From: Acidobacteriaceae bacterium
Lineage (GTDB): Bacteria > Acidobacteriota > Terriglobia > Terriglobales > Acidobacteriaceae
Assembly (NCBI GenBank): GCA_025352065.1
Contig: JANXUC010000136.1
Span: forward strand, 1 to 64,000
DNA length: 64,000 nucleotides
Direction: 5' to 3'
Shown: one piece after another, positions 20,384 to 39,709 of the stretch
Position numbering within the stretch: the stretch's first letter is position 1
Layout: each line of letters begins with the position of its first letter
Notes under the pieces: generated by a model
Told to the model about the DNA's origin: nothing
What the model saw: only the letters and a program-made list of their open reading frames with translations
The model's database searches: none
Made by a program: the position numbers and the translations under genes

Positions 20384-20401
20384 GGCTTCAACCTGATGTT
20401 C

Positions 20402-20944: not shown

Positions 20945-20949
20945 GGCAA

Positions 20950-21846: not shown

Positions 21847-21898
21847 CGTGTATTTAGCATCTTGTGGTCTTCGACTGTTCGCATTGTAAAGATTCGGA

Positions 21899-22966
21899 TC
21901 AAAGCGAATACTGCTTCGCGACCCACTCGCGGTAAGCTCCCGTGGCGATGTTCCGCGTCCACTGGTCGTGTTCAAGGTACCATTCGATGGTCTTGCGCAA
22001 CCCGCTAGCGAACGTTTCTGTAGGGTGCCAACCGAGCTCGCGCTCAATCTTGCGTGAATCGATGGCATAGCGGCGGTCATGGCCAGGTCGATCCTGCACA
22101 AAGCGAATCAGGCTGCGATGTGGAACCACCGGATCGTCGGGACGGAGTTCGTCGAGGACAGCGCAAACCGTTTCCACGACGTCCATGTTCTTCTGCTCGC
22201 TGCGTCCGCCAACATTGTAAGTCTCGCCCACGCCACCTCTCGCAAGGACAGTGCGGACCGCATCACAGTGGTCATCAACAAATATCCAGTCGCGTACATT
22301 CTGGCCGTCACCGTAGACGGGAAGTGGCTTGCCAGCTCGCGCATTCAGGATCATCAGCGGAATAAGCTTTTCCGGAAATTGGCGTGGGCCGTAGTTGTTG
22401 GAGCAATTCGTCGTGAGCGTGGGCAGACCATAAGTATGGTGGTAGGCGCGGACCAAATGATCGGAAGCCGCTTTGGAAGCCGAATACGGGCTGTTAGGTG
22501 CATAAGCCGTATTTTCGTGGAAAGGCGGGTCATCAAGCCCCAGTGAGCCGTAGACCTCATCGGTGGAAACATGCAGAAAACGAAAGGCTTGCTGGTCAGT
22601 GGGGGGCAAGTTCGACCAATAGCTACGGGCCGCTTCCAAGAGGCCGAGCGTGCCGTTGACGTTCGTGCGCACAAAATCATCCGGTCCATGAATGGAGCGG
22701 TCCACGTGGCTTTCGGCGGCGAAATGGACTACGGCCCGGGGCTGATGCTCTGTGAGAAGCCCCCGCGCCAGCTCACGGTTGCCGATATCGCCGTGGACGA
22801 ACTGGTATCTCGAATTTTCAGAAACGGTGACCAGGTTTTCGGGGTTTCCCGCATAAGTAAGCAGGTCGAGATTCACGATCGCCGCGGATTCGTTCGCGAA
22901 CCATTGGAGAATGAAGTTGGATCCAATGAATCCTGCGCCACCGGTAACGATGATCTTGTTCTGCAT
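21899..22966 (-). CDS. rmlB: dTDP-glucose 4,6-dehydratase
   Basis: A 355-residue extended SDR enzyme converting dTDP-glucose to the 4-keto-6-deoxy sugar. GGAGFIGSN at 9-17 binds NAD; STDEVYG has the Asp136/Glu137 pair used in dehydration; Tyr161 and Lys165 lie in YSASK. It is the first of the rml block, 107 bp after the beta-helix gene. That gap is large enough for an internal promoter, but I do not see a clear one. Confidence 0.94.
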
Positions 22967-23073
22967 GATTGTGTGGAACGCACCAAACTTGCACCAAAGC
23001 TAATAGACTTCCCAATAATCAAAACACTATTGCAGCCCATTGCACAAGGGCTGGCGGGGAAGATGTCGTGCTC

Positions 23074-24267
23074 TTAACGGATTGTTCCGGTCGCGATCTG
23101 GTTGAGATCCAATTTGGCTGTAGACGGGCCTTGCAATACTATTGCGGGCAATTTTTGGCCCGTCCCATTGCCCGTCAGGCGGTTCCCGGAAGCCCAATTT
23201 TGCTGGTTTGGGTGTAGGTCTTTAATCACGATACCGGAACCGTAGGCAAAGTCGATGACGTTATCCTCAATGCCCGACTTCTGCACGAAGAGCAGAGCGA
23301 TCCCTGCGGACAGTGCGCCGCCTTGTCCACCACGCAGGCAAGGGTTGTGTTCGACACGAACATTGTAAGTCGAGGTCGGGTTATCCACGCTGTGGACAAC
23401 GATGTTGTACTCGCGGTCGAAGTCAGCATCGTTGTCCTGAATAAGAACGTCGTGGCTGTCTTTTACGTCGATAGTGTTTTCGCCGTTACCGCCGCCCCGG
23501 TTGCGCAGAATTTCACCGTAGGCCGAGTGCCAAACCGTGATCCCGTCTTCTCCCGATGGGCCAAGAGTGTTGTCCTCAATCGAGAAGTGCGAAACCCCTT
23601 GCACGAGGTAGACGCCCCAATGGTTGAGGTGTTCCGAGTAAGGAATAAAATGATTCTTGCGGATATAGAGACCAGAGATGCTTCCGCTCTTCGTGCTGGA
23701 GTAGACGCCTGCCGATGCGTCATGGCCCGGGATGGCGGCATCCGTCTGTATATTGCAGTTCCGAATGGTGATGTCCTGTACCGCCACGGACCAGGAATAG
23801 ACGCGCACGCCCTCGAGTACGTGACGCAGATGGAGCCCGTCGTAGACGATGTGGCTCTGTTCGTTGTTGTCGATAGCGACATAGCGGGCACGGTTCTTGT
23901 TTATTTTAGAGGCGCGGTTCTTACCAGTTTTGCTCCAATTGACAACACTCTCGTCATCCCTGCCGTCAAGGACAGGTCGATTGCCTGAGCCATAACTGGT
24001 GAAAATGATTGGAGCCTCTTCTGTGCCCGAGGAAGGAGGACGCAATTCTTCCGGCCACGACTCGCCAGCATGGAACAGCACTCTGTCGCCCGGATGGAAA
24101 GCTCCCTGGTTGACTCGCGCAACCGACTTCCATGGTGTAGCCTCCGACAGCCCAGTTGCACTATCGTTTCCCACGCTCCGGCTTAGGTAGTAGTCGGTAC
24201 CGTCTGCCTGGCTATAAGGCAGCAGCAGCAGCAACAAGAAAATCCGAACATACCTTACACACTGCAT
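23074..24267 (-). CDS. secreted right-handed beta-helix protein of the exopolysaccharide locus
   Basis: A 397-residue protein with a signal peptide (IFLLLLLLPYS, cleavage near ADG). The rest reads as a right-handed parallel beta-helix (pectate-lyase-like fold), with repeated short strands such as ITIRNCNIQ, GLYIRKNHF, FSIEDNTLG, VLIQDNDAD and VRVEHNPCL. Proteins of this fold act on or bind polysaccharides; alginate operons have a beta-helix epimerase (AlgG) in the same kind of position. The catalytic type cannot be told from the sequence by eye. It lies 58 bp after the double glycosyltransferase gene. Confidence 0.75.
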   Translation of the reverse strand: MQCVRYVRIFLLLLLLPYSQADGTDYYLSRSVGNDSATGLSEATPWKSVARVNQGAFHPGDRVLFHAGESWPEELRPPSSGTEEAPIIFTSYGSGNRPVLDGRDDESVVNWSKTGKNRASKINKNRARYVAIDNNEQSHIVYDGLHLRHVLEGVRVYSWSVAVQDITIRNCNIQTDAAIPGHDASAGVYSSTKSGSISGLYIRKNHFIPYSEHLNHWGVYLVQGVSHFSIEDNTLGPSGEDGITVWHSAYGEILRNRGGGNGENTIDVKDSHDVLIQDNDADFDREYNIVVHSVDNPTSTYNVRVEHNPCLRGGQGGALSAGIALLFVQKSGIEDNVIDFAYGSGIVIKDLHPNQQNWASGNRLTGNGTGQKLPAIVLQGPSTAKLDLNQIATGTIR

Positions 24268-24325
24268 AGTTCACACCAATTTGTCCGACTTGATTTGAAG
24301 GTAGCAAGCCGTTGGGGGCCGGATA

Positions 24326-26782
24326 CTAAGCCGCATCTTGCTCAATGCGGTCGGGCGCGACGTCGTTCGGAAGGTCGCAGCGTGCTTTTGTTGGCTTGAG
24401 GGCCTCAATATAGCAACGCTCGACGGCGTCAGCGATCTTGGGCCACAAATAAAGTTCCTGAATGCGCAGGCGCGCAGCTTCCCCAGCTTGCCGTCGCATT
24501 GTTGAATCAGACCACAGCAGTTGCAGCATGCGCGCCAAGTCTCCGATGTTGCCTCGTTGGAAGGTGAACCCAACTCCGTCGACTAGCTCGCGGTTCTCGG
24601 GTATATCGCTGGCCAAGACGCATACTCCTGCGGCCATGGCGTCCAGCAAAGCCAGCGACAAGCCCTCCAAATCGGAAGGCAGCACGAACAGGGCAGCGTT
24701 GGTAAGGAGTTCTTGCAAGGCGTCGCCGGATACCCAGTCAATAAATTGAACTCGGTTACCCGCGATCTGCCGCAGTTTCGCGACGTAGCTATCGGTGTGG
24801 CTAGACCCTCCCGCCAGCACGAGCTTGGCGTCCGGAGGCAGGCTTTCAAAAGCACGAATCAGAAGATCGCAATTTTTTTCCGGCGAAAATCGTCCCATAA
24901 ACAGAACGTAACCATCCGCTTCAAGCCCCCACGACGCAAGGTGCGGCCCATGAACCCGGGGAAGCAAACGAGTCCCGTTCGCTATAAATGAGGTTTTAAT
25001 GCCATGCACGCGATGAAAATAGTCCTGCAACGTTCGCGAAACAACTATGGTGGAATCGGGCATTGTGGCGGAGGCGCGTTCACCCAGTCTTAGCACTGCC
25101 GACGCCACGCGGCCCCATTTCTTGCGCTGCCAGTCGAGGCCCTGCACGGTGACGATGGTGCGCGCTCCAAAGAGCCGCGGTATCCAGGAAAACAGCGCTG
25201 GGCCCAAAGCATGGAAGTGCACGATATCGTATTTTTGTCGGCAGGCATGGAACGTGCTGAGCAATGTATGCACGAGCGTGTCTAAGTGTTTGGTGCGCAG
25301 CGTGGGCAGCCGGACGAGTCGCATGTTCCGGTAATGGGTTTGATCGGGAGTGAAATAGTTCCTGCAGTAGATCGTGACGTCGTGTCCCATTTGTGCGAGG
25401 CGGCTGCCTACTTCTTCGTAGTAGGTTTCAATGCCGCTATATTGAGACACCACACCTCGACCGCCTATGAAGGCTACCCGCAAGCTCGGAGTTGGAGCCA
25501 TAGGCGCCGCTACTTTCTTTTTCGTAATTTGGGTCCCTTTCGCGTAGATCCGCATGAGAGCTTCGTAGTGAGATTGCGGCGAATGATTCTGGCGAACTCT
25601 CTGCAAGCCGGCTTCACCCATCGCTTTGGCAATAGCAGGCCTTGTGTGCAGAAACTGAATGGCCGAAGCGAGTTGGGCGACGTCTCCCACTTTGTATAAA
25701 ACTCCAGTCTCCCCCTTTGCGACAAGCTCCCGGCGTGATCCGAGGTCCGTTGCAATCACAGCGCGCCCCTGGGCGTAAGATTCGAGAATCGTCTTCCCCA
25801 AAGTTTCATAGGCGTGCGAAGGGAGCACGGTGAAGGCAGAATTCGCAATCAGCCGGTCAAGTGCGGGACCTCCGATATGACCCAGAAACTCAATATTCTG
25901 CAGCTTGAGGTTCCTTGCAAGGGCTTCAAGCGGAGCGCGTTCGGGTCCGTCGCCCGCGATTTGCAGACGGATGTTAGGAGTTTGTTGAATTGCGTGGAAC
26001 AGGTCGGCGACACCCTTCTCCGCTGAAAGGCGCCCGAAATAGAGAACGGGAGCGTCGGGCCCGGCGGGCCCGGCGGCGGATGGCGGCTCCAGAGGCAGAC
26101 GTTGAAAATGAGGCAAGACTTCTATGTCTCGCGGATCCCAGCCGCTTTCCACCATCTTGTCTCGCACAAAGTTGGTTGGAGCTAACAGCAGACTTACGCA
26201 TTTGCCGTAAGTATTGAGCCATTTGTGAACATAGGCTTCGGCTGCAAGAACGGCAGACGCGGTTCGCCCCTTTGGGTAGCACCCCTCAGCCACGACATTC
26301 CAAAAATTGCCTTTTACGCAGCGTTCGCAGGGTTCCCCATGGGACACCAGATTGTAAGTTGGGCACAACATTTTGAAGTCATTGAGGTGGTAAATGACGG
26401 GCACGCCTTGCCGTCGCAACTCCCACAAAATGGAAGGCGACAAATGGTGGTAGATGTTGCGAACATGAGCCACATCAGGTTGGAAATCGCGCAGCAGCCG
26501 ACGAATGCTGGAGCGCGCATCGCGTGAATAAATTGCGTGCGCTGCCAGGCGGAGTCGTCCGAGGGGATTACGCGGCGGACTCGTGAAGTCCACTCGCCGA
26601 GCTGCATAGGATGCGTATCTATCGCCCGACGAGGTTTCGTCCGAATCTGCGCTCTTCGGACCAGCCATGGAAAACAGCGCTGCCTCGTGTCCGTTGTGGC
26701 GAACCAGCCGCATTAGATCAAAGAGGTACTTCTCTGTGCCGGAAAACTCAAAGTTGTACTTGTTGCAATAAAGAATCCGCAT
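24326..26782 (-). CDS. tandem GT4-GT4 glycosyltransferase fusion
   Basis: 818 residues from ATG 26782; the frame is open further upstream but there it only overlaps the preceding gene. Two complete GT-B glycosyltransferase domains lie in one chain. Domain 1 (about 1-415) ends with LYFGRLSAEKGVADL, IAGDGPE and an E-x7-E region (SHAYETLGKTILESYAQG). A linker (KKKVAAPMAPTPS, about 420-432) leads to domain 2, which has IVTVQGLDW, LFMGRFSPEKNCDLL and SDLEGLSLALLDAMAAG. Both keep the GT4 donor-binding residues, so both may be active, adding two sugars in turn. A Met at the linker (ATG near 25501) marks the probable old gene junction. It overlaps the preceding GT4 gene by 35 bp. Confidence 0.87.
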   Translation of the reverse strand: MRILYCNKYNFEFSGTEKYLFDLMRLVRHNGHEAALFSMAGPKSADSDETSSGDRYASYAARRVDFTSPPRNPLGRLRLAAHAIYSRDARSSIRRLLRDFQPDVAHVRNIYHHLSPSILWELRRQGVPVIYHLNDFKMLCPTYNLVSHGEPCERCVKGNFWNVVAEGCYPKGRTASAVLAAEAYVHKWLNTYGKCVSLLLAPTNFVRDKMVESGWDPRDIEVLPHFQRLPLEPPSAAGPAGPDAPVLYFGRLSAEKGVADLFHAIQQTPNIRLQIAGDGPERAPLEALARNLKLQNIEFLGHIGGPALDRLIANSAFTVLPSHAYETLGKTILESYAQGRAVIATDLGSRRELVAKGETGVLYKVGDVAQLASAIQFLHTRPAIAKAMGEAGLQRVRQNHSPQSHYEALMRIYAKGTQITKKKVAAPMAPTPSLRVAFIGGRGVVSQYSGIETYYEEVGSRLAQMGHDVTIYCRNYFTPDQTHYRNMRLVRLPTLRTKHLDTLVHTLLSTFHACRQKYDIVHFHALGPALFSWIPRLFGARTIVTVQGLDWQRKKWGRVASAVLRLGERASATMPDSTIVVSRTLQDYFHRVHGIKTSFIANGTRLLPRVHGPHLASWGLEADGYVLFMGRFSPEKNCDLLIRAFESLPPDAKLVLAGGSSHTDSYVAKLRQIAGNRVQFIDWVSGDALQELLTNAALFVLPSDLEGLSLALLDAMAAGVCVLASDIPENRELVDGVGFTFQRGNIGDLARMLQLLWSDSTMRRQAGEAARLRIQELYLWPKIADAVERCYIEALKPTKARCDLPNDVAPDRIEQDAA

Positions 26783-28043
26783 GGAGTGAGTCCTCTTTGA
26801 TCTGAATTTGTTGCATAAAAATATCGCCAAACTGCTGGAGATTCGTGCTTTTGTTGAAGTTGACCTCAACATACTCACGCGCGGCCTGGCAGAGAGGTCC
26901 CAAAGCCGGACGCGTCCGGTGCAGAAATTCCACGCGCTCAACGAAGCTGGTGATGGAACCCGGCTTGTACAAGAAACCGGTCTTGCCATCGACGACAAGT
27001 TCCGGAATCCCGGTAATCGCCGGTGCAATTACCGGCCGTCCTAAAGCCATTGCTTCCATCAGCGTGAGTGGAATTCCTTCACTCACACTCGTCAGTACGA
27101 CTAGGTCGGCCTCGCGATAGAGAGCATCAAGTTTATTGTGCTCGACCTGCCCCAGGAGTTGGATTTCTTGTTCCAAATGTAGAGTGCGTATCAAGTTCGC
27201 GAGACGTCGTCGCTCCGGTCCGTCTCCGGCGATTCGACAGGAAAGCCTAAAGCCCGATGTTTTGAGAACCGCGCAGCCACGAATCAGAAAGGCGTGGTCC
27301 TTGACAGGATGCAAGCGGCCTACTGCGAGCAGCTTGAAGGAGGAATCCCCAACAGAAAGGCGAGCGTCCTGCTTAGGTGGGACGCGCACGCCCATGCGTC
27401 GAACGTACACGTGCCCGGGCGCTATTTGAGGATAGCGTCCAAGCAAATGGCACCGGTTGAACTCCGAAACTGTAAAGCAGTTTCCACAGTGCTGGAGTTT
27501 GATGTCGAGGAACGTTGGGCGCAGCAAGAGATCCGAGCCATGCAGGGTCAGGCTGTAAGGAATCTTGAGGATCCGTGCGGCAACCATGCCGATCCACGCC
27601 GCCATGTACCCGTGGTGCACGGCAATTTGACGCACGTTGTAGCTCCGAAGCTGCAGCGCGAGCTTGGCGCCGAGCAAAGTATGGGCTAGCGCGCGCGCGC
27701 GTAGCGTTGCTGATTCATTTCCAGAAATAATTCGATGGAAGAACTCACGCAGGTCCGAGAAGCGTGCAATGCAGAGCCAAAATGCCTGCAACACCAGCCA
27801 AGGGTGGAAGGCCGCAACTGTCAGTACCGGGAAATCGCCATCTGACGGTTGGTTCGAGTACGAGACGGTTGGCCAGACGCTACACGGTACGACACGTATA
27901 CCTCGCTTCCGGAGCTCGCCAATTTCTTCTCCCACATAGGGCTCTACCTGGGAAGGAAAGGAGTTAGCAAGGTAGGCGACCGCCAGCGAGGCTGCGCCGG
28001 TTTCCGTTCGTCGCCGATCCTGCAAAAGCTCTATTTTCGCCAT
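26748..28043 (-). CDS. GT4-family glycosyltransferase
   Basis: A 431-residue GT-B enzyme of the exopolysaccharide operon. The C-terminal donor-binding domain has LLAVGRLHPVKDHAFLI, IAGDGPERR, LLGQVEHNK and SVSEGIPLTLMEAMALG, with the family E-x7-E pair. The N-terminal half has SLTLHGSDL, typical of the acceptor domain. It is probably cytoplasmic, working on an undecaprenyl-linked acceptor. It starts 5 bp downstream of the heparinase-like gene. Confidence 0.87.
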   Translation of the reverse strand: MAKIELLQDRRRTETGAASLAVAYLANSFPSQVEPYVGEEIGELRKRGIRVVPCSVWPTVSYSNQPSDGDFPVLTVAAFHPWLVLQAFWLCIARFSDLREFFHRIISGNESATLRARALAHTLLGAKLALQLRSYNVRQIAVHHGYMAAWIGMVAARILKIPYSLTLHGSDLLLRPTFLDIKLQHCGNCFTVSEFNRCHLLGRYPQIAPGHVYVRRMGVRVPPKQDARLSVGDSSFKLLAVGRLHPVKDHAFLIRGCAVLKTSGFRLSCRIAGDGPERRRLANLIRTLHLEQEIQLLGQVEHNKLDALYREADLVVLTSVSEGIPLTLMEAMALGRPVIAPAITGIPELVVDGKTGFLYKPGSITSFVERVEFLHRTRPALGPLCQAAREYVEVNFNKSTNLQQFGDIFMQQIQIKEDSLHADSLLQQVQL

Positions 28044-28048
28044 CGTCG

Positions 28049-30052
28049 TCAGACCTGAGCGCCGGCCAATTCCGGCATCGGGAGATCAGGTTCTTGGCGC
28101 AGATCTGACGACTCTTTCAGTTTGCTCCGTGTGCTAATTCGAATTTTGAAATTTAGCTCGATTGGCATCTGGCCTTCCATCTCGGCGACCAAGACCCAGG
28201 AAGGCGCAATTCTTGCCGACGATGTCGCGACCCAACCCTGAAAGGCAACATCTTCTCCACGAACCAACCGCAGTAACGGAGCCGGACCCGAGCTACACAA
28301 TTCACAAACAAGAACATCGTCGTTATGCCATGCCACGATTGTGGTGGCGTCTTGCAGTTCAACCTCCAGATCAACGGCAAAGTGAAGCAGCCACTGTAGT
28401 TGATGCGTGGAACATCCCATGACCCGGTCGCGCATTGTTACCTCACCGGCTTGGTTAAGGGAGATTTCACGCGAGTGAATTGCGTCGCCAGTGGACCAAA
28501 AGGGCTCGACTTCGGCACCGATCGCTGCTTCGTTGGAATTGGATCGGTAGTTGTTGAGACGCACTCTCGCTTGGCCGCCAACCTCCCGGCGTACCGAGAG
28601 TTCATTTTGTTCGCGTCCATCAATCACCAAGGTGTTGTGAGCGGCTGCACTGCGGAAATATTGGTGTCGGTCAGGATTCCCGACCTGCATCTTGTCGCAT
28701 CGTCGAGCAGCGCCTTCTTGCGCGATATTCCAGCTATAGAAAAATCCGGAATCCACGATCCAGGGGCGGCCCGCGGCATGGAGCTCAAAACTCAAAGCGT
28801 CAGAATGTCCATGGTTGGCTGCGGCGCACCGGCTAAACGGTCCGAAATCGAACGTGAGGTGGGTTTGCTGTTTGTCACTACGCAGCATTCCATAGCCCGC
28901 CTCAGTGAATAGCTCCAGAGAGACTGGACGCTCCGCCGTTCGCGAAAGTCCTCTTGCGGAAAGCTTCTCCGGACGGAGCCAATACGTCAAATCCGAGACA
29001 ATTGGTGAGCTAGCATCAAAACGAAGGCAAGTGTCGGGAAAAGAAGAATCGCCCAGGAGAGGGATGCTTCCGTCATTTCGGCGCAATGCTGTTGAGAATC
29101 TCCGCATGCTGAAGATTCTTTCTTCCATCGCCAGCGGCAACGACTTTCCGAGCCGTCGACAGAGCAGTGTAAACGCGTTCAGTTCGGTCGCGACGATGTC
29201 GTGATACATGGGGCAGAGTTCGCTGTGGACGCCATCCCCGAGAATCTGCAGCTTAACCTGTGCTTCGAGCACGCGGGATGCGAGGGCAAGATAGCGTTCC
29301 CCGCCATGTTCTTTAAAGATCACGGCAAACTCGTAGAGCGAAACAGCTTCAAGAAGCAAATGGTTGTTCGGCCAGTGGTATTCCATGTGTTCCGCAAGGT
29401 ATTCTGCGTGATCTCGTAGACCTCGCCACGCCTTGTGTAAAAATAGCGGACTCACCTCGGACGAGGCGAGCAGCAAGAAATAGGCCCAAGTCCAGTTCCG
29501 CAGTCGTGCAGCTACTTCAAAAGGGGACCTCCAATTCTGACCCTGCCCCGCAGGATTGCGTTGCATCCAGTCGGACCACAATTGGATCAGCTTATCTTTG
29601 AACGGCGAACCGCCGGGTGACTCACCTGCGTCGGGTGGGCCACCTGCGTAATGATGCGCGGTACCAAGAGTCAGAAATGATCGGTGTCGGTTCAGATCCC
29701 AAGACCAGGATGTGTTTCCTTCCGGCGCGAAATTCCAATCAACTGCTTCTTGGAAATGCACTTCAGGGAGTCCGCGGAAGAAAAATCGCTGCTGCAAATA
29801 CTGTTCGGCTTCAAGAAGTATCGTTCTGCGAATAGACTCCGGAACCGCCGAAACAATCGAACATACATCGTCAGTCGCGAAGTGGAACATTGGCCGTGGA
29901 GCCGTTCCCAGCAGTGAACCTGGAGTGACGCGACGGGATAAGCTGCCCAGTCGGTAACGTGTCGCTCGCGCGTGGTGAGTCAGAAGGTCTCGCACGTACC
30001 CAGGGCCACGTTGGCGTGTTTTTTCAGCGAAAGTGAGTAAACGATCCATCAT
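28049..30052 (-). CDS. heparinase II/III-family protein
   Basis: About 667 residues from ATG 30052, preceded by a GGAG site (GGAGATGGCCACCTT). The N-terminal half is a helical toroid (with YHWPNNHLLLEAVSLYEFA and YHDIVATELNAF); the C-terminal half is the Heparinase II/III beta-sandwich with NHGHSDALSFEL, then PWIVDSGFFYSW and AAHNTLVIDGREQ, whose His residues are the family's conserved ones. Such proteins cleave or bind uronic-acid polysaccharides. There is no obvious signal peptide, so its location is uncertain. It lies between the flippase and the first glycosyltransferase, so it should act on the polymer made here (inference). Confidence 0.82.
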   Translation of the reverse strand: MMDRLLTFAEKTRQRGPGYVRDLLTHHARATRYRLGSLSRRVTPGSLLGTAPRPMFHFATDDVCSIVSAVPESIRRTILLEAEQYLQQRFFFRGLPEVHFQEAVDWNFAPEGNTSWSWDLNRHRSFLTLGTAHHYAGGPPDAGESPGGSPFKDKLIQLWSDWMQRNPAGQGQNWRSPFEVAARLRNWTWAYFLLLASSEVSPLFLHKAWRGLRDHAEYLAEHMEYHWPNNHLLLEAVSLYEFAVIFKEHGGERYLALASRVLEAQVKLQILGDGVHSELCPMYHDIVATELNAFTLLCRRLGKSLPLAMEERIFSMRRFSTALRRNDGSIPLLGDSSFPDTCLRFDASSPIVSDLTYWLRPEKLSARGLSRTAERPVSLELFTEAGYGMLRSDKQQTHLTFDFGPFSRCAAANHGHSDALSFELHAAGRPWIVDSGFFYSWNIAQEGAARRCDKMQVGNPDRHQYFRSAAAHNTLVIDGREQNELSVRREVGGQARVRLNNYRSNSNEAAIGAEVEPFWSTGDAIHSREISLNQAGEVTMRDRVMGCSTHQLQWLLHFAVDLEVELQDATTIVAWHNDDVLVCELCSSGPAPLLRLVRGEDVAFQGWVATSSARIAPSWVLVAEMEGQMPIELNFKIRISTRSKLKESSDLRQEPDLPMPELAGAQV

Positions 30053-30072
30053 AAGGTGGCCATCTCCTTGTC

Positions 30073-31581
30073 TTAATCTCCGGAAATTACAGGCCGGCGT
30101 CGCGTGAATGAGGACCATTCATAATCAGGATTGCTTTGGGATAAAGGCGGGGGCAAGAAACGCTGTGCGATCCACCTGCCAGCCCGAATTCCTGTAACAA
30201 CCGCGAGTGGCAGCCAAAGCGCCCACCGCCACGCGGAGACTGATGCCGAACTGAGAATCGCCACCACGAACCCCGCTAACCAGGGCAGCGTGGCTTTTAA
30301 AGAGACCCGCAAATTCGGGGTCAAAGCACTGTGCAGCAGGAAGCAAGGAACGCAGGCGCCTAGTTCTGACCACCCGTACCCAACCATGCCAAATCGGGGG
30401 ACTAAAACTGCCGTTCCACTGACGAAAACAGCTACATGCCAGAAATAGATACGCGTCACCGCCCATTGCCGTCCTTCGACAAAGAGCGCCGATGCTTCCA
30501 AAAGGAAGATGCTGTTGGTGAGTGCAGCTGCAGCAATAAAGGGGAAGACGAGAAGCGCCGAAGACCACCGCGCCCCCATCAGTGTTGGCAAGAATCTGGG
30601 CCCGAGGAGTGCCAACAGGCAGAAGGCTGGCCCGAGAGCAAAGATCTGCCAACGGGCGCCTTTTTGCATCATTTCGCGTCCGCGTTCGGGGTCCTCCCGG
30701 AGTCGCGAAAGCGCAGCAATTTCAACTCTGCCTACAGCGGTGCGCACAAAACCCAACGCCTCAACAGCCCGCACGCCAAGCGCGACGAAAGCTACCGCCT
30801 CTGCGCCTAGGAAGCGGCCTACAATCAAGGGGTTAACCAGGTTTCGCAGCTGCCAAACTCGCACCGACGCGGAAAAGCCCAAGCCAAAACTCATCATCTG
30901 GCGCGCCCGGGACAGGTTGAAGTTCAGTCGCGGCACAAATCCGGACACAATCCTTGCCGCCACCAGCACAAAGGCTTGCCATGCGACATAGCCCACAACA
31001 GGTGCCCAAACGCCAAATCCACGCCAGGCAAGGATGGCGCCCACGATAAAGGCGCAAAGCTGCCCGCCAAACTCAATTTGCCCAACATCCCGAAATTCCA
31101 GGGCGCGCTCCAATTTCGCGAGCGGCGGCCCCGCGAGACCAACCAGCGGAATCGTGGCCAACAAGACCAGATAGGGAATCGCGAAGCTGCGATCATGCAA
31201 CCAAAGGCTGAGCAGCGGCAGCGCCAGCCACCCCAGCAGGCATAAAAACATTGAAATCAATAGGATGAGCGTAAAAGCCGTGTCGTAGTCCTCGCGATTC
31301 GGGACTTCCTCACAACGCACCAGATGCGTGTCCAATCCCGCGCGAGTAATGCTCGACAAGAACGTGGTAATGCCGACGGCCGTCACGAATGCACCATAAG
31401 CACGTGGCCCAATCCACCAAGTCAAAACCAAGACATTGCCAGCCTGGATGAGAGAGCTCGCTCCGTAGCGCGCGGCGATGAACCCAACGCCACGCTGTGA
31501 AAGGGAAACCATATAGGAGGTGTCCGACCCTGTGTTGTATTTGGGCAGCTTAGGCTTGTGCCGCCACGACGGCAGACGCAT
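30073..31581 (-). CDS. polysaccharide flippase (Wzx/MATE-like)
   Basis: A 502-residue membrane protein with about 12-14 hydrophobic segments, matching the oligosaccharide flippase family that moves lipid-linked repeat units across the inner membrane. The start at 31581 is supported by a very strong AAGGAGGA ribosome-binding site 5 bp upstream, even though it overlaps the end of the ligase gene by 32 bp. The first 23 residues are Arg/Lys-rich before the SLSQRGVGFIAARYGA helix. Confidence 0.85.
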   Translation of the reverse strand: MRLPSWRHKPKLPKYNTGSDTSYMVSLSQRGVGFIAARYGASSLIQAGNVLVLTWWIGPRAYGAFVTAVGITTFLSSITRAGLDTHLVRCEEVPNREDYDTAFTLILLISMFLCLLGWLALPLLSLWLHDRSFAIPYLVLLATIPLVGLAGPPLAKLERALEFRDVGQIEFGGQLCAFIVGAILAWRGFGVWAPVVGYVAWQAFVLVAARIVSGFVPRLNFNLSRARQMMSFGLGFSASVRVWQLRNLVNPLIVGRFLGAEAVAFVALGVRAVEALGFVRTAVGRVEIAALSRLREDPERGREMMQKGARWQIFALGPAFCLLALLGPRFLPTLMGARWSSALLVFPFIAAAALTNSIFLLEASALFVEGRQWAVTRIYFWHVAVFVSGTAVLVPRFGMVGYGWSELGACVPCFLLHSALTPNLRVSLKATLPWLAGFVVAILSSASVSAWRWALWLPLAVVTGIRAGRWIAQRFLPPPLSQSNPDYEWSSFTRRRPVISGD

Positions 31582-32908
31582 GTGTCCTCCTTTCCGGTGC
31601 TTCGTGCCGCGCAGCCAATATTCCTGCCAGAGTAAAAATCAGGGCGTTCACGAATTGATAGTTCATAACAACGAAGCAGGCGTTAAAGAGGTACACGCAC
31701 ACCAGCACGGGCCAGAGACTGCGCAAGCCATCTCCTGCTAAGGTGTTGTCCCACCTCTCGTCGGATCCCTTCCCCGGCCGTTTGCTCATACGGCTGGCGC
31801 GGAACAGTCCTACAGCGATTGACACATAGAGAGTCAGGCCCAGCAGTCCGTTTTCGACCAAAATCTCCAGGTACGAGTTGTGCGCCCAATAGGCCTCCAG
31901 GTGGTAGCCCTCGACTCGCCGCACCACTTCCCGTGGCATCTGGTTGACGCCCCAACCGAGAAGCGGCCTTTCTACCGCCATGCCAAGCGCAGCGCGGTAG
32001 ATAGCAACCCGAATTTCAATGGGCCCTTGCTCTCCAGCTCGGTCCGCTAACGCGTTTTGTTGATTCGGCGTCGCCAGGCTGATGAGCAACCCGAGGACAG
32101 CCACTCCAGCCAGAGCCAAGGTCGCCTTGCGTAGCGCCCCTCGCGTTGACAACCCGATCCAAACAATCGAGCCAGCGAAGGACAACCACACAGCCCGCGT
32201 CATCGTGGCCAAGATCGCAATTGGGAGCGCCGATAGAAGCAGGATTCCCAGCAATCCTCGAAGTCGGCCGCGGCGATAGCAATCCAGGGCCACTAGGCCA
32301 AGCACGTTGAGAACAACTCCGTTCGCCACGGCTTGCAGGAACGGACCGCGAGCGCGGTCCACGTGGATGCCGATGCTGGGATCCAGAATGAAACGAGGAA
32401 AGACAAGTAGATCCCAACCCAGCAACTGTGCGATGGCTGTGAAACTTAAATACGCGAGTGTGACAAGCAGAAACGTTTCCAGGTGGCGAAGAGAAGCTGG
32501 AGTATCAAAGACGATTCCTGCGAAATAGTAGAGCGCGTAAGGAACCAGGAATTTTGCCGCCATCAAGCTCCAGGTCTGAGCGTTGTAAGGTTGTCCAAGC
32601 GTGGTTAGAACTGCAAGCGAACAAAGCACTAACATCGGCCAAACCAATGGGGTTGCTGGCCAAAGCTGTTTGCGTAGGAGTACCGCCCGAACTAAACACG
32701 CAATCACGAGCAAACCGAGTGCGACTCGGTCCAGTTGGTAGAGATCGACATCCGGTGGCCGGAATAGAAATATCGCTAGCATCAGGATGAAGAGCTGAGA
32801 CGTGAGACGGCTGACCGCTAGCAATGGAGCCAGCACGAGGTTTGTCAGCGAAGCTGCAGGTGGTGCCTCCGCCCACTCCGGAACCAGCTGGTTGGAACCA
32901 GCCCTCAT
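31550..32908 (-). CDS. O-antigen ligase/polymerase family (Wzy-like) membrane protein
   Basis: 452 residues from ATG 32908, which overlaps the previous stop as ATGA. About 11-12 hydrophobic segments flank a periplasmic loop with YWAHNSYLEILVENGLLGL, the Wzy_C signature. In a Wzx/Wzy-type locus it would polymerise the repeat units; a ligase role cannot be excluded. Its end overlaps the flippase start. Confidence 0.85.
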   Translation of the reverse strand: MRAGSNQLVPEWAEAPPAASLTNLVLAPLLAVSRLTSQLFILMLAIFLFRPPDVDLYQLDRVALGLLVIACLVRAVLLRKQLWPATPLVWPMLVLCSLAVLTTLGQPYNAQTWSLMAAKFLVPYALYYFAGIVFDTPASLRHLETFLLVTLAYLSFTAIAQLLGWDLLVFPRFILDPSIGIHVDRARGPFLQAVANGVVLNVLGLVALDCYRRGRLRGLLGILLLSALPIAILATMTRAVWLSFAGSIVWIGLSTRGALRKATLALAGVAVLGLLISLATPNQQNALADRAGEQGPIEIRVAIYRAALGMAVERPLLGWGVNQMPREVVRRVEGYHLEAYWAHNSYLEILVENGLLGLTLYVSIAVGLFRASRMSKRPGKGSDERWDNTLAGDGLRSLWPVLVCVYLFNACFVVMNYQFVNALIFTLAGILAARHEAPERRTHASAVVAAQA

Positions 32909-34011
32909 ACACCGCTCCCAATCGCAACTTCCTTCACGGTGCGGAAGAGAATCCAAAGGTCCATCGACATGGATTGCTTTTCGATGTACTCGCGGTCGAG
33001 CGCCATACTGCGTTCAAACGATGGATCCCTGCGCGCGGTAACCTGCCACAGTCCGGTCAGCCCAGGCGTAACCGTGAGCCGCTGCATGTGTTCTGGCGTG
33101 TACTGTGCGTGATCGTCGAGTGGATGCGGCCTCGGCCCCACCAGGCTCATATCCCCGCGCAGGACATTCCACAACTGCGGTAGTTCGTCGAGGCTGTAGC
33201 GACGCAGAAGCCGCCCGAATGAGGTGATCCGTGGATCATTCCTAAGTTTGAAGAACGGCCCTGAGCGTTCGTTCTGGGCTCGCAACGAATTTTTCTCCAG
33301 GTCTGCTTCCGTTCGCATAGTGCGAAATTTGCAGCACCGAAACGGATAACCCTTTCGGCCCATGCGGGCGGCGCAGTAAAGTGCTGGTCCAGGCGAGGTG
33401 AGCTTGATCAGCATGGAGATCAATGCGAGCGCCGGTGCAAGGAGTAGCAGTAAACCTGCCGACGCGATCATGTCGAGTGCGCGTTTCAAGAGCGGATTGA
33501 AGGTCGGCGCAGGTCTCTTCCGCAAGGTGAGCAACGGGATTGTGCCGAGCATGCTTGCGCTGGAATACTGCAGATCGCAACCGTAAGTCTCGGGCACCAC
33601 CTTGATGTCCAGATTCAGTCCGCGTGCCAGGAATACCGCGCGTCGAGCCGCGGCGACATTGTCGGGAAGGCACACGACGACCTCGTCAATGAAGCGTGTC
33701 CGGGCCAGATGTTCCAGATCTTGGATTCGGCCAACCGTCTCAACGCCAGGAGCGGGCTGGTCATCCAGGAATCCCTCGAAGCGAACTGATGTGGGAACCG
33801 CCGTTTGTAGCCAGACTCCCAAATTGCGTGCGGTCCGGCCGGTCCCGACGATTACGATGTGTCGTGCATTCGTTTCTGCGTGTGGAGTCTGCGCCAATGC
33901 TGAGGTGTCTATTCCTTCACCTGGGAAGGCTTGCGGGCTTGCTATTGGTTGTGGTCCGTACTCCTGGTCGAGTTCGGAAAGAAGTCGCTTTCTTGCTGTT
34001 GCGGTGCTCAT
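32905..34011 (-). CDS. initiating sugar-phosphate transferase (bacterial sugar transferase, WbaP/WcaJ-type)
   Basis: A 368-residue protein that should transfer the first sugar phosphate to undecaprenyl phosphate. The C-terminal ~200 residues are the bacterial sugar transferase domain: one hydrophobic stretch (DMIASAGLLLLLAPALAL), then KFRTM, DELPQLWNVLRGDMSLVGPRP and TPGLTGLWQV. An N-terminal Rossmann-like domain (HIVIVGTGRTARNLG) is kept, but the four N-terminal membrane helices usual in WcaJ/WbaP are missing; the first 50 residues are polar. Co-transcribed with the genes on both sides. Confidence 0.9.
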   Translation of the reverse strand: MSTATARKRLLSELDQEYGPQPIASPQAFPGEGIDTSALAQTPHAETNARHIVIVGTGRTARNLGVWLQTAVPTSVRFEGFLDDQPAPGVETVGRIQDLEHLARTRFIDEVVVCLPDNVAAARRAVFLARGLNLDIKVVPETYGCDLQYSSASMLGTIPLLTLRKRPAPTFNPLLKRALDMIASAGLLLLLAPALALISMLIKLTSPGPALYCAARMGRKGYPFRCCKFRTMRTEADLEKNSLRAQNERSGPFFKLRNDPRITSFGRLLRRYSLDELPQLWNVLRGDMSLVGPRPHPLDDHAQYTPEHMQRLTVTPGLTGLWQVTARRDPSFERSMALDREYIEKQSMSMDLWILFRTVKEVAIGSGV

Positions 34012-34090
34012 ACTCGGCTCATTCCTCTTACTCGTAGAGTTGTCGATTGCTGCTGGCTATTCGTCCCGGGAGCCCTCAAGCGGTAGGCGT

Positions 34091-34822
34091 TTAAGCTCTG
34101 CAATAAATGGATTCTGGTACCGGGAACGTTCGTTGGTCGAGAACCGTTCCGAGAAGCGATACTCCGGCGGAGCGCAGCATCTGGCTGGCGCGAACCGCAG
34201 CGGCGCGCCGCGTGACGTTCGCCTCCAATACAAGGACAATTCCCTCGGCCAACTGTCCCAGCAACACGGCTTCCTTGCCCGCTCCCAGTGCAGGCGCGTG
34301 GATGACCAAATAGCCAAATTCCCGGCGCAGGCGGCCCAAGCGGAGCCTTACCAAGTCGCTCTTTGGGGACCAGGTATCCTCTCGCAAGAAGCGGTCCGAC
34401 GGACACACCCACAGATTTCGGCTCGCTTTGTACGTCAGGTCGTGAACCGGGGAAATCGGCGGTGACGAATATTGGGCGGCCAACTCGGACCACAACCCGG
34501 CGCGGGAGTCCACTTCGACCAGGCAAACGCTTTCCGCGACTTGTTGTGCCAGTATTTCGGCAATGCGAGCGCTTAACCACGGGCGCATCCCCTTGCTCTC
34601 CACACTGCTGAAGGCAACATGGCGGTGGCTGCCCCGGTGTCCGGGCAAGTAAACCTTCTGAACCAGTTCACCCAGCTGCTTGATGGCGAAGCGATCGGTG
34701 GGGCTCGAAAAGGAGTCGCGGATCTCGCGTTCGCGGGCCGAAGGCCGGGCGGCCGGCACTGTATCCGGCCTTTCGAATGGAATGGGCTGCCACGAAGTCT
34801 GCGTAGTTGTTGCCATGGTCAA
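34091..34822 (-). CDS. BY-kinase-like (CpsD/CapB) protein lacking a P-loop
   Basis: A 243-residue cytoplasmic protein in the place where a tyrosine kinase follows Wzz. The fold pattern agrees with BY-kinases: HRHVAFSSVESKG at the Walker A position, VCLVEVDSRAG at Walker A', YLVIHAPALG at Walker B, and GTVLDQRTFPVPESIY at the end. The Walker A Gly-Lys-Thr/Ser is absent (SKGMRPW) and the Walker B Asp is replaced by His. The Tyr-rich tail is also missing. It is therefore probably inactive as a kinase and may be a structural partner of the Wzz-like protein. It lies 19 bp after the Wzz gene. Confidence 0.72.
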   Translation of the reverse strand: MTMATTTQTSWQPIPFERPDTVPAARPSAREREIRDSFSSPTDRFAIKQLGELVQKVYLPGHRGSHRHVAFSSVESKGMRPWLSARIAEILAQQVAESVCLVEVDSRAGLWSELAAQYSSPPISPVHDLTYKASRNLWVCPSDRFLREDTWSPKSDLVRLRLGRLRREFGYLVIHAPALGAGKEAVLLGQLAEGIVLVLEANVTRRAAAVRASQMLRSAGVSLLGTVLDQRTFPVPESIYCRA

Positions 34823-34841
34823 AAGCCTTTCTTAATCAAAA

Positions 34842-36359
34842 TCAGTCCAAAGTAGGTAGGTAGCGTTGCGCAGTTCCGCCGCGCGGTATGGAAGCGAGTA
34901 CCGCGATGCCGAGGTAATGCAAGACTTCGTCCGGGGTACGAAACGCAGGGTCCAGGTAGTCCGCTATAAACGCGCAGCCGGTGCCCGCCGTGCCCGCTAC
35001 GGCCAAAGCGGCGACCGCCAGCAGCAGGAACGGCAAACGAGGCGTGGCGGGCACAATAGGGGCTTCTGCGACCATCACGTTGAGGATTCCTCGCGCGTCC
35101 AAAGCGTCGACGATCCGGTTCTCTTCTTTCTTACGGTTGTAGAGGACGAAATTGTCTTCAGCGATCTTTGCTGTACGCATCAGGTCGCCTTGCCGAATGG
35201 CTTGCAGGCCCAGATCCTGAGACATGGTCCTGTAGCGCGCAATCGTTGATTGATTCGCGCTGGTCCGCCCCCGAAGCCCGTAAAGCTCAACTTCCGTCTT
35301 AACCAGCTCTGCCTCAACCCAGGCATGCGTAGGTTCGCGGTCCGTGGTCTCCTCGCGTACCGGTTTCAACTCTTCTGCGGCGATGGCTGCCTTGGCGTCG
35401 GCCATCTGTTGCTCAACTTCCGTCACCAGCCGGTAGGAAGGCTGGAACTTGGTGAGAAGTTCAGTTCGCTTGAGGGACAAATTCATCAACGTGGACTTTA
35501 ACTGCTGCTGAAGAAAGGGATTATCGGCAACCTTGACCGAGGTGGTTTGGCGCTCGGGAGTGGATGCGATGTGATCTTTGAGTAGGCGGACACGCTGTTC
35601 GTCTTCCGCGATGGCGGTGTGGTTCTGCTCCTGGGATGCTTCGAAGTCGGTCAGTTTTTGCAGGAGCAGGTCGCGCTGCGTCGCGGCGGAGACCACGTGC
35701 TCTTGTTCGAGATATTGCCCCATTTTGTCTTCGGAAATCTGCAACGCCTCGCTGTAGTGCCGGGCTTGCTCGTCGAAAAACTGAGACTGGCCGGCAGCGC
35801 GGTGAACCTCACTATTTTTAGCTAGATAGAGCCGCATCAGCGCTCCCAGCACCTGCAAAGACTGTTGGCGGTCGGACGAGCGGTAGCTGACGCGCACGAG
35901 GTTGGCACGCCGGACGGGCTCCACGACCAGGAGGCGCTGCAAGTGCTTCACCGCCGCGTCAAGTTGCTCGTCCGAGTCGGGCGCAGAGAACTTGCCGAAA
36001 ACCTTGTCCAGCGCGCCTAGCCTGACAAGACCCGTGCTTCGCGCAACCTCGCGGAGCAAATCTCGATCCTGCAGGATGTCGACCTCGGAATTTAGTTCCT
36101 CTTCCGTCACTTCCGTCCGTACAAACGGCGTTTGCACGTCAGCGGGACCGGCGATGGGATCGATTCGTTGCTTTTCCACCAGGAACTTCATCTCGCCCTC
36201 GTATCGTTCGCGAGTCAGGCCCCACATCAGCACAGCGAACAGCGCCAGAGCGAAAGCCAAAAGAAATACGCGCTTTTGGCGAAAAAACACGGCCAGCAGG
36301 TCGCGCAATGTGGGCGCCGGAGTCGAATAATCTGTGGGTAACGTCAGTTCTTCGCGCAC
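34842..36359 (-). CDS. polysaccharide chain-length determinant (Wzz/GumC-like)
   Basis: A 505-residue inner-membrane protein. The first membrane helix is near 31-49, the second near 445-468, with a long periplasmic part in between rich in Gln/Glu/Leu and predicted coiled coil (about 170-400). A short cytoplasmic tail follows (DPAFRTPDEVLHYLGIAVLASIPR), which is the usual contact for a BY-kinase, but no kinase domain is fused. It controls chain length and links export to synthesis. Second gene of the operon. Confidence 0.88.
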   Translation of the reverse strand: MREELTLPTDYSTPAPTLRDLLAVFFRQKRVFLLAFALALFAVLMWGLTRERYEGEMKFLVEKQRIDPIAGPADVQTPFVRTEVTEEELNSEVDILQDRDLLREVARSTGLVRLGALDKVFGKFSAPDSDEQLDAAVKHLQRLLVVEPVRRANLVRVSYRSSDRQQSLQVLGALMRLYLAKNSEVHRAAGQSQFFDEQARHYSEALQISEDKMGQYLEQEHVVSAATQRDLLLQKLTDFEASQEQNHTAIAEDEQRVRLLKDHIASTPERQTTSVKVADNPFLQQQLKSTLMNLSLKRTELLTKFQPSYRLVTEVEQQMADAKAAIAAEELKPVREETTDREPTHAWVEAELVKTEVELYGLRGRTSANQSTIARYRTMSQDLGLQAIRQGDLMRTAKIAEDNFVLYNRKKEENRIVDALDARGILNVMVAEAPIVPATPRLPFLLLAVAALAVAGTAGTGCAFIADYLDPAFRTPDEVLHYLGIAVLASIPRGGTAQRYLPTLD

Positions 36360-36392
36360 TTTACCGTCCTCGACCCGTTTTGCTGGCCGTCA

Positions 36393-37133
36393 TCAGAGCT
36401 TCGCCCCGCTCAAGTACAGGCCAAGACTGCTGGTTGGAATGAAACGCTCGATTTTGGAAAATTGTGTGCGTGGAACGAAAAGCATGTCACCTGGGTGGAG
36501 GTGGAGGTCTTCGGCCAGATTGCGTGCATGCAAAATTCGCTTCATGTCGACCAGTTTGGTCTCGGTGTAACCCTCGGAAACGCGACGAAACAAAACTACT
36601 TGTGAAGTTTTGGCCTTATCGGTAAAGCCGCCCGCGATGGCCATGGCTTGTAACATGGTTAGATCGCCACGCAAGTCATATTTACCTGGGCGGCCTACTT
36701 CGCCGGTCGCAAGGAAATAAGGATGCTCGAATTCCTTGAGCGTCACGCTGACTTCGCCCTGATTCAGGATGCTGGCGTAGGCCGTTTCAATCTGAGCAGT
36801 TAAAGCTGGAAGGGTGAGATCGGCAGCGTGCAAGGTGCCCGCCATGCGGAGGGTAATAAAACCGTCTGGCTGGACGGTTACCGTCTGGTTGAATTCAGTT
36901 GCAAAGGTGAAGGCTAACTCCAGGGTATCGCTCTGTTGGACGTGATAGAGCTGATTCCTCGTGCCCTGGAGCTCCGCTCCTGGCGACTCCGGCCCCGAGC
37001 CGGTTTTTGTCTCCCCGTATGCCAGGGATTTCAGATTCGCCTTCACCTTTGCTTCTTGTTGCCCCAGGGCCGTGGCCCCGGTTAGCAAAATCGGAACTAA
37101 CAAATTAAGGAATACTAGAACAATGTGTTTCAT
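36393..37133 (-). CDS. polysaccharide export protein (Wza-like)
   Basis: A 246-residue exported protein with a signal peptide (LNLLVPILLTGATALGQ). A Poly_export domain (YHVQQSDTLELAF, then VTVQPDGFITLRMAG) is followed by an SLBB domain (YFLATGEVGRPGKYDLRGDLTMLQAMAIAGGF) and LHPGDMLFVPRT. There is no lipobox Cys, unlike E. coli Wza. It is the first gene of the exopolysaccharide operon. Confidence 0.9.
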   Translation of the reverse strand: MKHIVLVFLNLLVPILLTGATALGQQEAKVKANLKSLAYGETKTGSGPESPGAELQGTRNQLYHVQQSDTLELAFTFATEFNQTVTVQPDGFITLRMAGTLHAADLTLPALTAQIETAYASILNQGEVSVTLKEFEHPYFLATGEVGRPGKYDLRGDLTMLQAMAIAGGFTDKAKTSQVVLFRRVSEGYTETKLVDMKRILHARNLAEDLHLHPGDMLFVPRTQFSKIERFIPTSSLGLYLSGAKL

Positions 37134-37525: not shown

Positions 37526-38299
37526 GTGATTCTAGTGCCGCTGTCTGATACAGTTTTTCAACCCATCGAAGTTCTGGTCGCCGATTCCAGCCAGATGCAA
37601 TCGCAACTGCTAAGCAGCGCTTTGCGCCGCCGGCCCGACCTCAAAGTCAGTGCCTGCGAAATGACGGCGGAGGCTATTCTTGCCTGGCCACAACTTCTGC
37701 GCGCAGGCGTAATCCTGCTCAACCCTGCTCACCACGACGAGGCTTGTTTTGCCACGATTCGTCGCGTTCACACGATGTATCCCAATGTACCACTGATTTT
37801 GCTAGGCGAGTGTTACGAGCGGGATATTGTGGTCAGCGCCTTCCGCAGCGGCGCGCGCGGGATGTTTTGTTTTGCGAAAACGTCTCTGAGCTCGCTCTGC
37901 AAGTGTATTCACGCAGTGCGGGATGGCCAGGTTTGGGCCAATACAAGGCAGATCCATTTCCTGCTGGAGCAGGTTTGCCAGGTGCCGTCTCTCCGCGTGG
38001 TCAATGACTGCGGGCGCAGCCTGCTGACGCCCCGCGAAGGCCAAGTTGTAGCGCTGGTTGCAGAGGGTATGAGCAATCGCGACGTTTCCAACGAACTGAG
38101 TCTGAGCGAGCACACGGTAAAAAAGTATCTATTCCGCATTTTCGATAAGCTCGGTGTGTCGAATCGAGTGGAACTGGTGTTGTACGCGGTTCATCACACC
38201 GATTCTCGTCCGACACAGTGGGCACCAGAGACCCCAGTGCGTGGGATGCCGGTACGGGCGACGGTGCAGGAGTTGCTGGCAAAGGCGATTCCAGCTTAG
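37526..38299 (+). CDS. LuxR/NarL-type regulator with degenerate receiver domain
   Basis: 257 residues (GTG start at 37526; a second GTG at 37535 is possible). The N-terminal ~125 residues have a receiver fold, but the phospho-acceptor position is Asn66 (GVILLNPAH) and only one acidic residue of the usual pair remains (VLVADSS). The conserved Lys118 is kept. The C-terminal GerE domain is intact: LTPREGQVVALVAEGMSNRDVSNELSLSEHTVKKYL. It probably does not depend on phosphorylation. Being divergent from the exopolysaccharide operon, it is the best candidate for its regulator (inference). Confidence 0.82.
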   Translation: MILVPLSDTVFQPIEVLVADSSQMQSQLLSSALRRRPDLKVSACEMTAEAILAWPQLLRAGVILLNPAHHDEACFATIRRVHTMYPNVPLILLGECYERDIVVSAFRSGARGMFCFAKTSLSSLCKCIHAVRDGQVWANTRQIHFLLEQVCQVPSLRVVNDCGRSLLTPREGQVVALVAEGMSNRDVSNELSLSEHTVKKYLFRIFDKLGVSNRVELVLYAVHHTDSRPTQWAPETPVRGMPVRATVQELLAKAIPA

Positions 38300-38464: not shown

Positions 38465-38800
38465 GTGCTGGTTTCCGGAGTCTTAGTCGGAATCCTTGCG
38501 TTGGTGGTCCTTTACACCAATCGCGGTCGGCTCAGCAGCCCTCTGTCGATCGTCGTCCTTGCCGCAGTCGGCTTACTTGCGCTGATTCTGCAATTGCGCC
38601 TTCGGAGCCGAGGAGACGCGAATCGTAGGACCTCATCGCCATGGTTGTATGTTGTGGGTGTGGGAAGCGCACTGGCTGCGCTCGGCGCTGATTTCACTAA
38701 ATTCCATGCCGACTACGCGCCAGCGTTCGCGCTTTTGGCGGTAGGATGTTTTGCCGTGAGCAGCGTGATTGTGCTGCAGTCCTTGCGCAAGGCGGGATAA
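38465..38800 (+). CDS. small membrane protein of unknown function
   Basis: 111 residues from GTG 38465 with four hydrophobic segments (about 1-17, 26-43, 60-75, 85-104). Not recognised. The frame reads sensibly further upstream (YGAYLADLENSRRWTVL) to a TGA at 38399-38401, and beyond that stop to an ATG at 38351 in the same frame. The true start may therefore be a CTG (38432 or 38441), or the gene has gained an in-frame stop near its 5' end. Confidence 0.5.
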   Translation: MLVSGVLVGILALVVLYTNRGRLSSPLSIVVLAAVGLLALILQLRLRSRGDANRRTSSPWLYVVGVGSALAALGADFTKFHADYAPAFALLAVGCFAVSSVIVLQSLRKAG

Positions 38801-38821: not shown

Positions 38822-39709
38822 CTAGTTATTCAGCTTAAAGGCTACTTCGATCGTTGTTTCAACTTCTACGGCAGTGCCATTCAGCGTGAACGGTGAGAAG
38901 CGCCAGTTTTTCACTGCATTGATCGCCGCTGGAGCCAATTCCGGCGGGCCACTGATCAGCTGCACATCAAGAACCCGGCCATCCTTCCCAATTACAGTGT
39001 CGAGCAGTACGCCACCTTCAATGTCTTTGTTACGGGCCGCTTCGGGATAAACAGGCATCGTCCGGTAGCTGATAAGGGATTGCATGACATCGGCGGCCAC
39101 AATCATGCGCTGCGGAGGAATCTCCGGAGTTGCAGTAACCGCCGCGCGCTCCGGAGCGGTTAGAAGCTTCCTGAACCGAGCGGGATGCTGATAACTCAAC
39201 CAGCCTCCGCCCAACGCCAGCAGCGCAAACAGCAGCCCTACCAAAGTTAGGGATCGGGAGCGATTAGCGCGTCTCCGCGACCATTTTTGTTTCGGGCGGG
39301 TAGTCAGGAAGTTCAACTCGGTGGCTACCGGCGCGAACTTTGCGGTATCCGCCGCCGAAACCATGAGCAAATGCCCCGTTTCCGTCCATTGCCGAACGAA
39401 GTCCAGCTTGGAGGCGTTGACAGTAGAGAATTCAAGGCCACACCGGATGCGGTCCTGGTATCGAACCCGAGCCCGCGCCTGCACTAATTCGCTGGAATTG
39501 GGCAGGGGAAACTCAATCCCCACAGATTCCCCTATGTAAAGGTCCCCGGCCAGTACCACGCTGAGCCCGCCCAGTCCGGCATCGACCAGTCGCCCGGGCA
39601 GATTCTGCGGGATACCCGAGCGCAGCACAGTCACCTCCACAGGCGACGTCAACTCGTAGCGGGGATGCTTCCGCCGCAGCGGAACTTGTAGGGGGATAGC
39701 TGCCATCAA
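38822..39709 (-). CDS. PilZ domain-TonB C-terminal domain fusion protein
   Basis: A 295-residue protein. Residues about 12-112 form a PilZ domain, with RRKHPRYE giving the arginines of the RxxxR c-di-GMP motif and DAGLGGLSV in place of D/NxSxxG. A hydrophobic segment near 155-172 crosses the membrane. Residues about 215-295 form a TonB C-terminal domain (MPVYPEAARNKDIEGGVLLDTVIGKDG, then AAINAVKNWRFSPF). The topology would be PilZ in the cytoplasm and TonB in the periplasm. It lies alone and divergent from nifJ. Confidence 0.85.
   Translation of the reverse strand: MMAAIPLQVPLRRKHPRYELTSPVEVTVLRSGIPQNLPGRLVDAGLGGLSVVLAGDLYIGESVGIEFPLPNSSELVQARARVRYQDRIRCGLEFSTVNASKLDFVRQWTETGHLLMVSAADTAKFAPVATELNFLTTRPKQKWSRRRANRSRSLTLVGLLFALLALGGGWLSYQHPARFRKLLTAPERAAVTATPEIPPQRMIVAADVMQSLISYRTMPVYPEAARNKDIEGGVLLDTVIGKDGRVLDVQLISGPPELAPAAINAVKNWRFSPFTLNGTAVEVETTIEVAFKLNN

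Follow-up and report, generated by a model that had tools for sequence, protein, structure and literature searches.

The control of exopolysaccharide (EPS) systems of the Wza/Wzc/Wzy type proceeds mainly via tyrosine phosphorylation and transcription. Among the proteins bearing a PilZ domain, YpfA/MotI of Bacillus subtilis acts as a soluble motility brake. Direct c-di-GMP control is best known in synthase-type systems, namely for BcsA, Alg44 and PelD (PMC8461298). In the alginate co-polymerase Alg44 of P. aeruginosa, an N-terminal PilZ domain is followed by one transmembrane (TM) segment and a periplasmic domain, and the protein, which is encoded along with the polymer genes, is required for the c-di-GMP control of alginate (PMC8461298, PMC12564702). 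According to a review, S46 of Alg44 is among the conserved residues that have been mutated (PMC12564702).

In this work, we analysed a 64,000-nucleotide stretch of Acidobacteriaceae DNA (the window) that encodes a protein joining a PilZ domain to a TonB C-terminal domain (TonB_C), here called PilZ-TonB. When the architectures and gene settings are set side by side, Alg44 appears as its closest match in anatomy and setting: the two share the layout of a PilZ domain, a single TM segment and a periplasmic domain, a gene linked to EPS genes, and the RxxxR motif. Unlike Alg44, whose periplasmic domain is of the membrane-fusion (HlyD-like) type, PilZ-TonB ends in TonB_C; its D/NxSxxG serine is replaced, its gene lies outside the EPS operon, and the adjoining cluster in the window is of the Wza/Wzc/Wzy type rather than synthase dependent. 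The TonB energy transducer of the TonB-ExbB-ExbD system (PMC12215075) also combines a single N-in TM helix with a TonB C-terminal domain, but PilZ-TonB differs from it in having a large cytoplasmic PilZ domain and a short linker, and in lacking both an exbD neighbour and the SHLS-type TM residues. YpfA/MotI (PDB 5vx6) resembles PilZ-TonB in its PilZ domain, where RRQYVR and NISAGG are the aligned motifs, but it keeps the serine and has neither a TM helix nor TonB_C.

Domain organisation of PilZ-TonB

The minus-strand ORF at 38822-39709 is unbroken and comprises 295 amino acids when counted from the TTG at 39709. The codon right after it is an ATG (39706), which gives a protein of 294 amino acids; since the TAAGG-like ribosome site ahead is better placed for this codon, the ATG is the likelier start, the TTG being also possible. 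On the protein, Pfam PilZ covers residues 12-101 (E 2.2e-10, 41.2 bits vs. a cut-off of 22.5) and TonB_C residues 219-293 (E 3.9e-18, 66.1 bits vs. a cut-off of 24.6), and the NCBIfam profile TIGR01352 (tonB_Cterm) also scores above its cut-off. The PDB entries nearest to this TonB_C are TonB chains, the best being 2k9k (2.4e-9, or 2e-13 with the family profile). The other features of the gene and its surroundings are collected in Table 1.

The sole hydrophobic helix lies between the two domains, at about residues 152-170 by hydropathy; a low-confidence model built without an alignment places it at 155-173. The stretch just before the helix carries a net charge of +8 in 15 residues, thus predicting an N-in/C-out orientation with a cytoplasmic PilZ and a periplasmic TonB_C. 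In low-confidence structure models made without an alignment (mean pLDDT 51 and 54), the PilZ region, for which a six-stranded beta-barrel would be expected, comes out mostly as strands with a C-terminal helix; no conclusion here rests on these models. The results bear out the proposal of the earlier note, made from the letters alone, that PilZ, one membrane helix and TonB_C stand in one protein, and a profile search recovers PilZ above the cut-off both in the whole-genome scan and on the protein itself. PilZ-TonB is a genuine conserved membrane protein, with PilZ predicted inside and TonB_C beyond the inner membrane; the combination is novel, while the individual parts are ordinary.

Table 1. 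Features of the PilZ-TonB gene and the neighbouring EPS cluster (positions in the window)
Feature	Position	Strand	Evidence
PilZ-TM-TonB_C protein gene	38822..39706	minus	ORF and sequence, Pfam/NCBIfam domains, full-length relatives
PilZ domain	39407..39676	minus	PF07238 43.6 bits, E 1.1e-10 (whole-genome scan)
RxxxR motif (RKHPR)	39659..39673	minus	both Arg invariant, 44/44 rows
Altered D/NxSxxG motif (DAGLGG)	39566..39583	minus	last Gly invariant, 44/44 rows
Single transmembrane helix, basic on N-terminal side	39197..39253	minus	hydropathy
TonB C-terminal domain, predicted periplasmic	38831..39055	minus	PF03544 68.6 bits (genome scan)
Small hydrophobic protein, convergent neighbour	38465..38800	plus	no Pfam match; relatives in 10 other PilZ-TonB loci
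LuxR/GerE-type regulator	37526..38299	plus	PF00196 4.3e-17; conserved in ~15 related loci
Wza-like polysaccharide export protein (Poly_export + SLBB)	36393..37133	minus	PF02563 6.7e-13, PF10531 4.2e-10
Wzc/Wzz-like chain-length protein	34842..36359	minus	name based on position and appearance of the sequence; without Pfam match
CpsD/BY-kinase-like protein	34091..34822	minus	named by position; no Pfam match
Sugar-1-phosphate transferase (WbaP/EpsE type)	32905..34011	minus	PF02397 3.8e-63
Wzy-type polymerase/ligase	31550..32956	minus	L149 relative matches Wzy_C 1.6e-19; tblastn link
Rest of EPS cluster	19547..31581	minus	ORFs, relatives' Pfam matches, conserved positions
Double glycosyltransferase	24326-27028	minus	two glycosyltransferases fused, ~820-900 residues

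Spread and conservation of the family

Among close relatives, five proteins were found, of which three were full-length with 39% identity and the other two had longer linkers; the profile built from these was run over 397 genomes of the order. PilZ-TonB proteins were found in 69 of the 397 genomes, all belonging to the taxonomic family of the window itself; at least four genomes (G124, G174, G240 and G351) bear two copies. We read 44 loci in full, and both domains were present in all save one, which lies at a truncated end. When we sampled the phylum (396 genomes) and the class (359 genomes), no full-length relative came up outside this family; a pattern-based search of named genomes returned only TonB-domain proteins devoid of PilZ, and plasmid records gave TonB matches only, none with 80% coverage. 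A literature search for a PilZ-TonB fusion found nothing relevant.

The alignment of 44 rows comprises the window protein and 43 relatives, which are 27-40% identical to it and match it from end to end. The fusion therefore does not stem from an error of assembly or reading frame, and PilZ-TonB is a true protein family of limited spread, not a one-off fusion. On the tree of the 44 proteins, the window protein has a long branch and an uncertain position.

The PilZ pocket

Both motifs named in the earlier note, RKHPR and DAGLGG, are present, and its caution that the latter is altered, leaving c-di-GMP binding uncertain, was rightly made: the window protein departs from the canonical D/NxSxxG c-di-GMP motif in having Gly in place of Ser, its PilZ membership being unaffected, and the serine is replaced in 35 of the 44 rows. 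This position is occupied by G in 24 rows, C in 9, S in 9, A in 1 and N in 1, and the first position of the motif by N in 20, D in 17 and E in 7. Decay of the motif in the window PilZ was considered and rejected, as the altered pattern spans the whole family and is thus a shared trait. The RxxxR motif remains unchanged although the relatives share only 27-40% of their residues with the window protein, which argues that the ligand is kept. A loss of the pocket in all orthologues, which the earlier note had named as counting against its reading, is not what the alignment displays, with RxxxR in every row and the serine retained in nine. Judging from these residues, c-di-GMP binding by PilZ-TonB is plausible.

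When the family profile was compared with the PDB, the sole PilZ chain reached was that of YpfA. A further PilZ protein encoded in this genome has DLGEGG at the motif. The genome holds 12 GGDEF and 28 PilZ matches, and from this gene content c-di-GMP is very likely produced in the organism.

The neighbouring EPS cluster

PilZ-TonB borders an EPS cluster spanning 19547-37133, which is reached past the small membrane protein and the LuxR-type regulator. The convergent placement of the small protein is kept in several of the 10 loci that have its relatives. Besides the genes listed singly in Table 1, the cluster contains flippase-like and heparinase-like proteins, glycosyltransferases and RmlB/RmlA/RmlD-like genes; a GT2 synthase of the Alg8 type, the partner of Alg44, was not noticed among the EPS genes of the window. 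The ATP-binding motifs of the CpsD-like protein look degenerate, so that this cluster may lack the BY-kinase step or have it in altered form. The other flank of PilZ-TonB is formed by a divergent ferredoxin/flavodoxin oxidoreductase-like gene (named from sequence).

Across the relatives, EPS-cluster genes lie within flanks of approximately 8-10 kb in 28 of 46 loci (the window and 27 of the 45 others), or in 25 of 46 when the loci with rml genes only are dropped, and the linked loci come from five genera (g1, g6, g43, g67 and g71). A wza relative is found in the flank at 16 of the 46 loci vs. about 1.6% expected, the latter being our own estimate, based on genomes of 3-8 Mb that each have 1-8 Poly_export matches. 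In genera g1 and g67, and at most of the g6 loci, the cluster faces PilZ-TonB with its luxR-wza end; in g43 and g71, and at two loci of g6, it does so with its rml/glycosyltransferase end. As the facing end differs by genus yet the adjacency is kept, the link has outlived rearrangement. The upstream neighbour varies, being rpiA-like in g6, polA-like in g43 and an oxidoreductase in the window, while the EPS side is constant.

The double glycosyltransferase served as a marker of the cluster and is present in 64 of the 397 genomes. Marker and PilZ-TonB occur together in 50 genomes, PilZ-TonB alone in 19, the marker alone in 14 and neither in 314 (Fisher p 9e-35, uncorrected for relatedness). When both are on the same contig, they are within 15 kb in 31 of 33 pairs. 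On the tree of the 44 proteins, the EPS-linked state requires 4 changes vs. a shuffled mean of 12.6, so that the linkage is clustered by relatedness, and a single ancestral link followed by losses is possible.

At 18 of the 46 loci there is no EPS neighbour, some of these being cut by contig ends or representing second copies; these loci and the 14 marker-only genomes imply that the link is not obligatory. The restricted spread, along with the marker-only genomes, suggests a tuning role for PilZ-TonB rather than a core one. The long forms of the protein (g5, g11 and g78) group apart on the tree; two of them adjoin GAF/zinc-ribbon membrane proteins and further non-EPS genes. In long-form relatives (L072:181-1515, L073:6439-7788 and L155:6856-8289), PilZ is followed by a zinc-ribbon-like CxxC pair ahead of the TM helix, and some of the adjacent GAF/zinc-ribbon proteins end in Sel1-like repeats. 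The EPS link of PilZ-TonB is a new, testable lead.

Other TonB_C proteins of the genome

Two GAF-TM-TonB_C proteins are encoded in the same genome (L011 and L022, on contigs C153 and C7). Like PilZ-TonB, they combine a cytoplasmic sensor-type domain, one TM helix and a C-terminal TonB_C, and they differ from it in having GAF for PilZ and longer linkers. Taken together with PilZ-TonB, they indicate that the cytoplasmic sensor-TM-TonB_C layout is recurrent in this genome. Two further proteins, adjacent to each other (L012/L017, C47:137434-138834), each have two tandem TonB_C domains. Both the PilZ and the TonB_C family are expanded in this genome of 4.25 Mb, with 28 and 27 matches, respectively.

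Discussion

The data obtained lead us to a tentative reading, to which we assign a probability of about 0.45: PilZ-TonB may be an Alg44-like single-pass receptor that tunes the assembly or export of the adjacent EPS. The N-terminal PilZ in the cytoplasm would read c-di-GMP, or be regulated in the same pocket, and the signal would cross the membrane along the single helix and reach a short tether in the periplasm. At the end of this tether, TonB_C could dock on some component of the adjacent Wza/Wzc/Wzy-type machinery, in the periplasm or the outer membrane, and, once docked, tune EPS assembly or export, thereby standing in for the membrane-fusion (HlyD-like) module of Alg44. As the relatives usually sit at the edge of the same EPS cluster, PilZ-TonB more likely tunes this polymer than powers nutrient uptake.

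An unlikely alternative is a genuine TonB energy transducer with c-di-GMP as its gate, in which ExbB/ExbD energise the helix and TonB_C pulls an outer-membrane receptor. The high score of TonB_C and its proximity to real TonB structures speak for this, as do the exbD genes present elsewhere in the genome and the three long forms, whose linkers of 145-177 residues with 18-28 Pro could span the periplasm. In 41 of the 44 rows, however, only 34-45 residues with 0-5 Pro separate the TM helix from TonB_C; in the window the linker has 45 residues and 5 Pro, so that it is not the long Pro-rich linker of the TonB type. In E. coli, the SHLS pattern in the TonB helix contacts ExbB (PMC12215075), and a Ser/His pattern of this type is absent from the window helix, SLTLVGLLFALLALGGGWL, which has no His, nor is any His conserved in the relatives. 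This criterion is weak here, because the ExbD-linked TonB of the same genome (C80) also has no helix His; that helix does contain a Glu (FLVEAIFVG), and no such acidic residue is found in the window helix. No exbD lies on the contig of the window, its copies being found on other contigs only, and of the 27 TonB_C matches in the genome, 26 are other than that of the window, and one of these stands beside exbD. No TonB-dependent receptor, the conserved partner that the earlier note had proposed to look for, was recognised among the conserved neighbours examined. The note's suggestion of outer-membrane energy transfer is thus weakly supported, given the short linker, the absence of exbD from the contig and EPS genes as the only conserved neighbourhood. 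The evidence for an ExbBD-driven TonB is weak, and we do not class PilZ-TonB here as a TonB energy transducer.

It is just as doubtful that the PilZ domain has ceased to bind c-di-GMP and become a protein-interaction module, PilZ-TonB serving constitutively as a scaffold for the machinery of EPS or of the envelope. The prevalent replacement of the serine in the second motif, with Glu for Asp/Asn in seven rows, would fit such a scaffold, and there is a precedent in the PilZ of P. aeruginosa, which is short of key motif residues and does not bind c-di-GMP (PMC12564702); but ligand loss would not predict that the two RxxxR arginines and the last glycine of the second motif stay invariant among such divergent sequences, or that nine rows keep the serine. 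We find it rather improbable that PilZ-TonB is a general envelope protein, e.g., for TolA-like tethering or sensing, with the EPS neighbourhood as inherited synteny devoid of function. Other genomes do place it by unrelated genes (mutL-like, AMP-binding), the rpiA-like or polA-like genes that recur upstream have no obvious link to it, and the recurrent layout represented by the GAF-TM-TonB_C proteins would also suit a general role. Against this, the EPS adjacency holds in spite of the different facing ends of the cluster among genera, and the downstream EPS genes stay while the upstream ones change from the divergent ferredoxin oxidoreductase to rpiA or polA.

A bolder and quite improbable reading is a c-di-GMP-controlled trans-envelope coupler, where PilZ occupancy would switch the periplasmic TonB so as to open or hold a Wza-type exporter. 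If this were true, a TonB-like module would serve polymer export, not nutrient import. With PilZ-TonB bordering a Wza/Wzc/Wzy cluster, the direct action of c-di-GMP on such systems becomes testable, and the protein likewise makes testable the role of TonB_C domains fused to cytoplasmic sensors such as PilZ and GAF.
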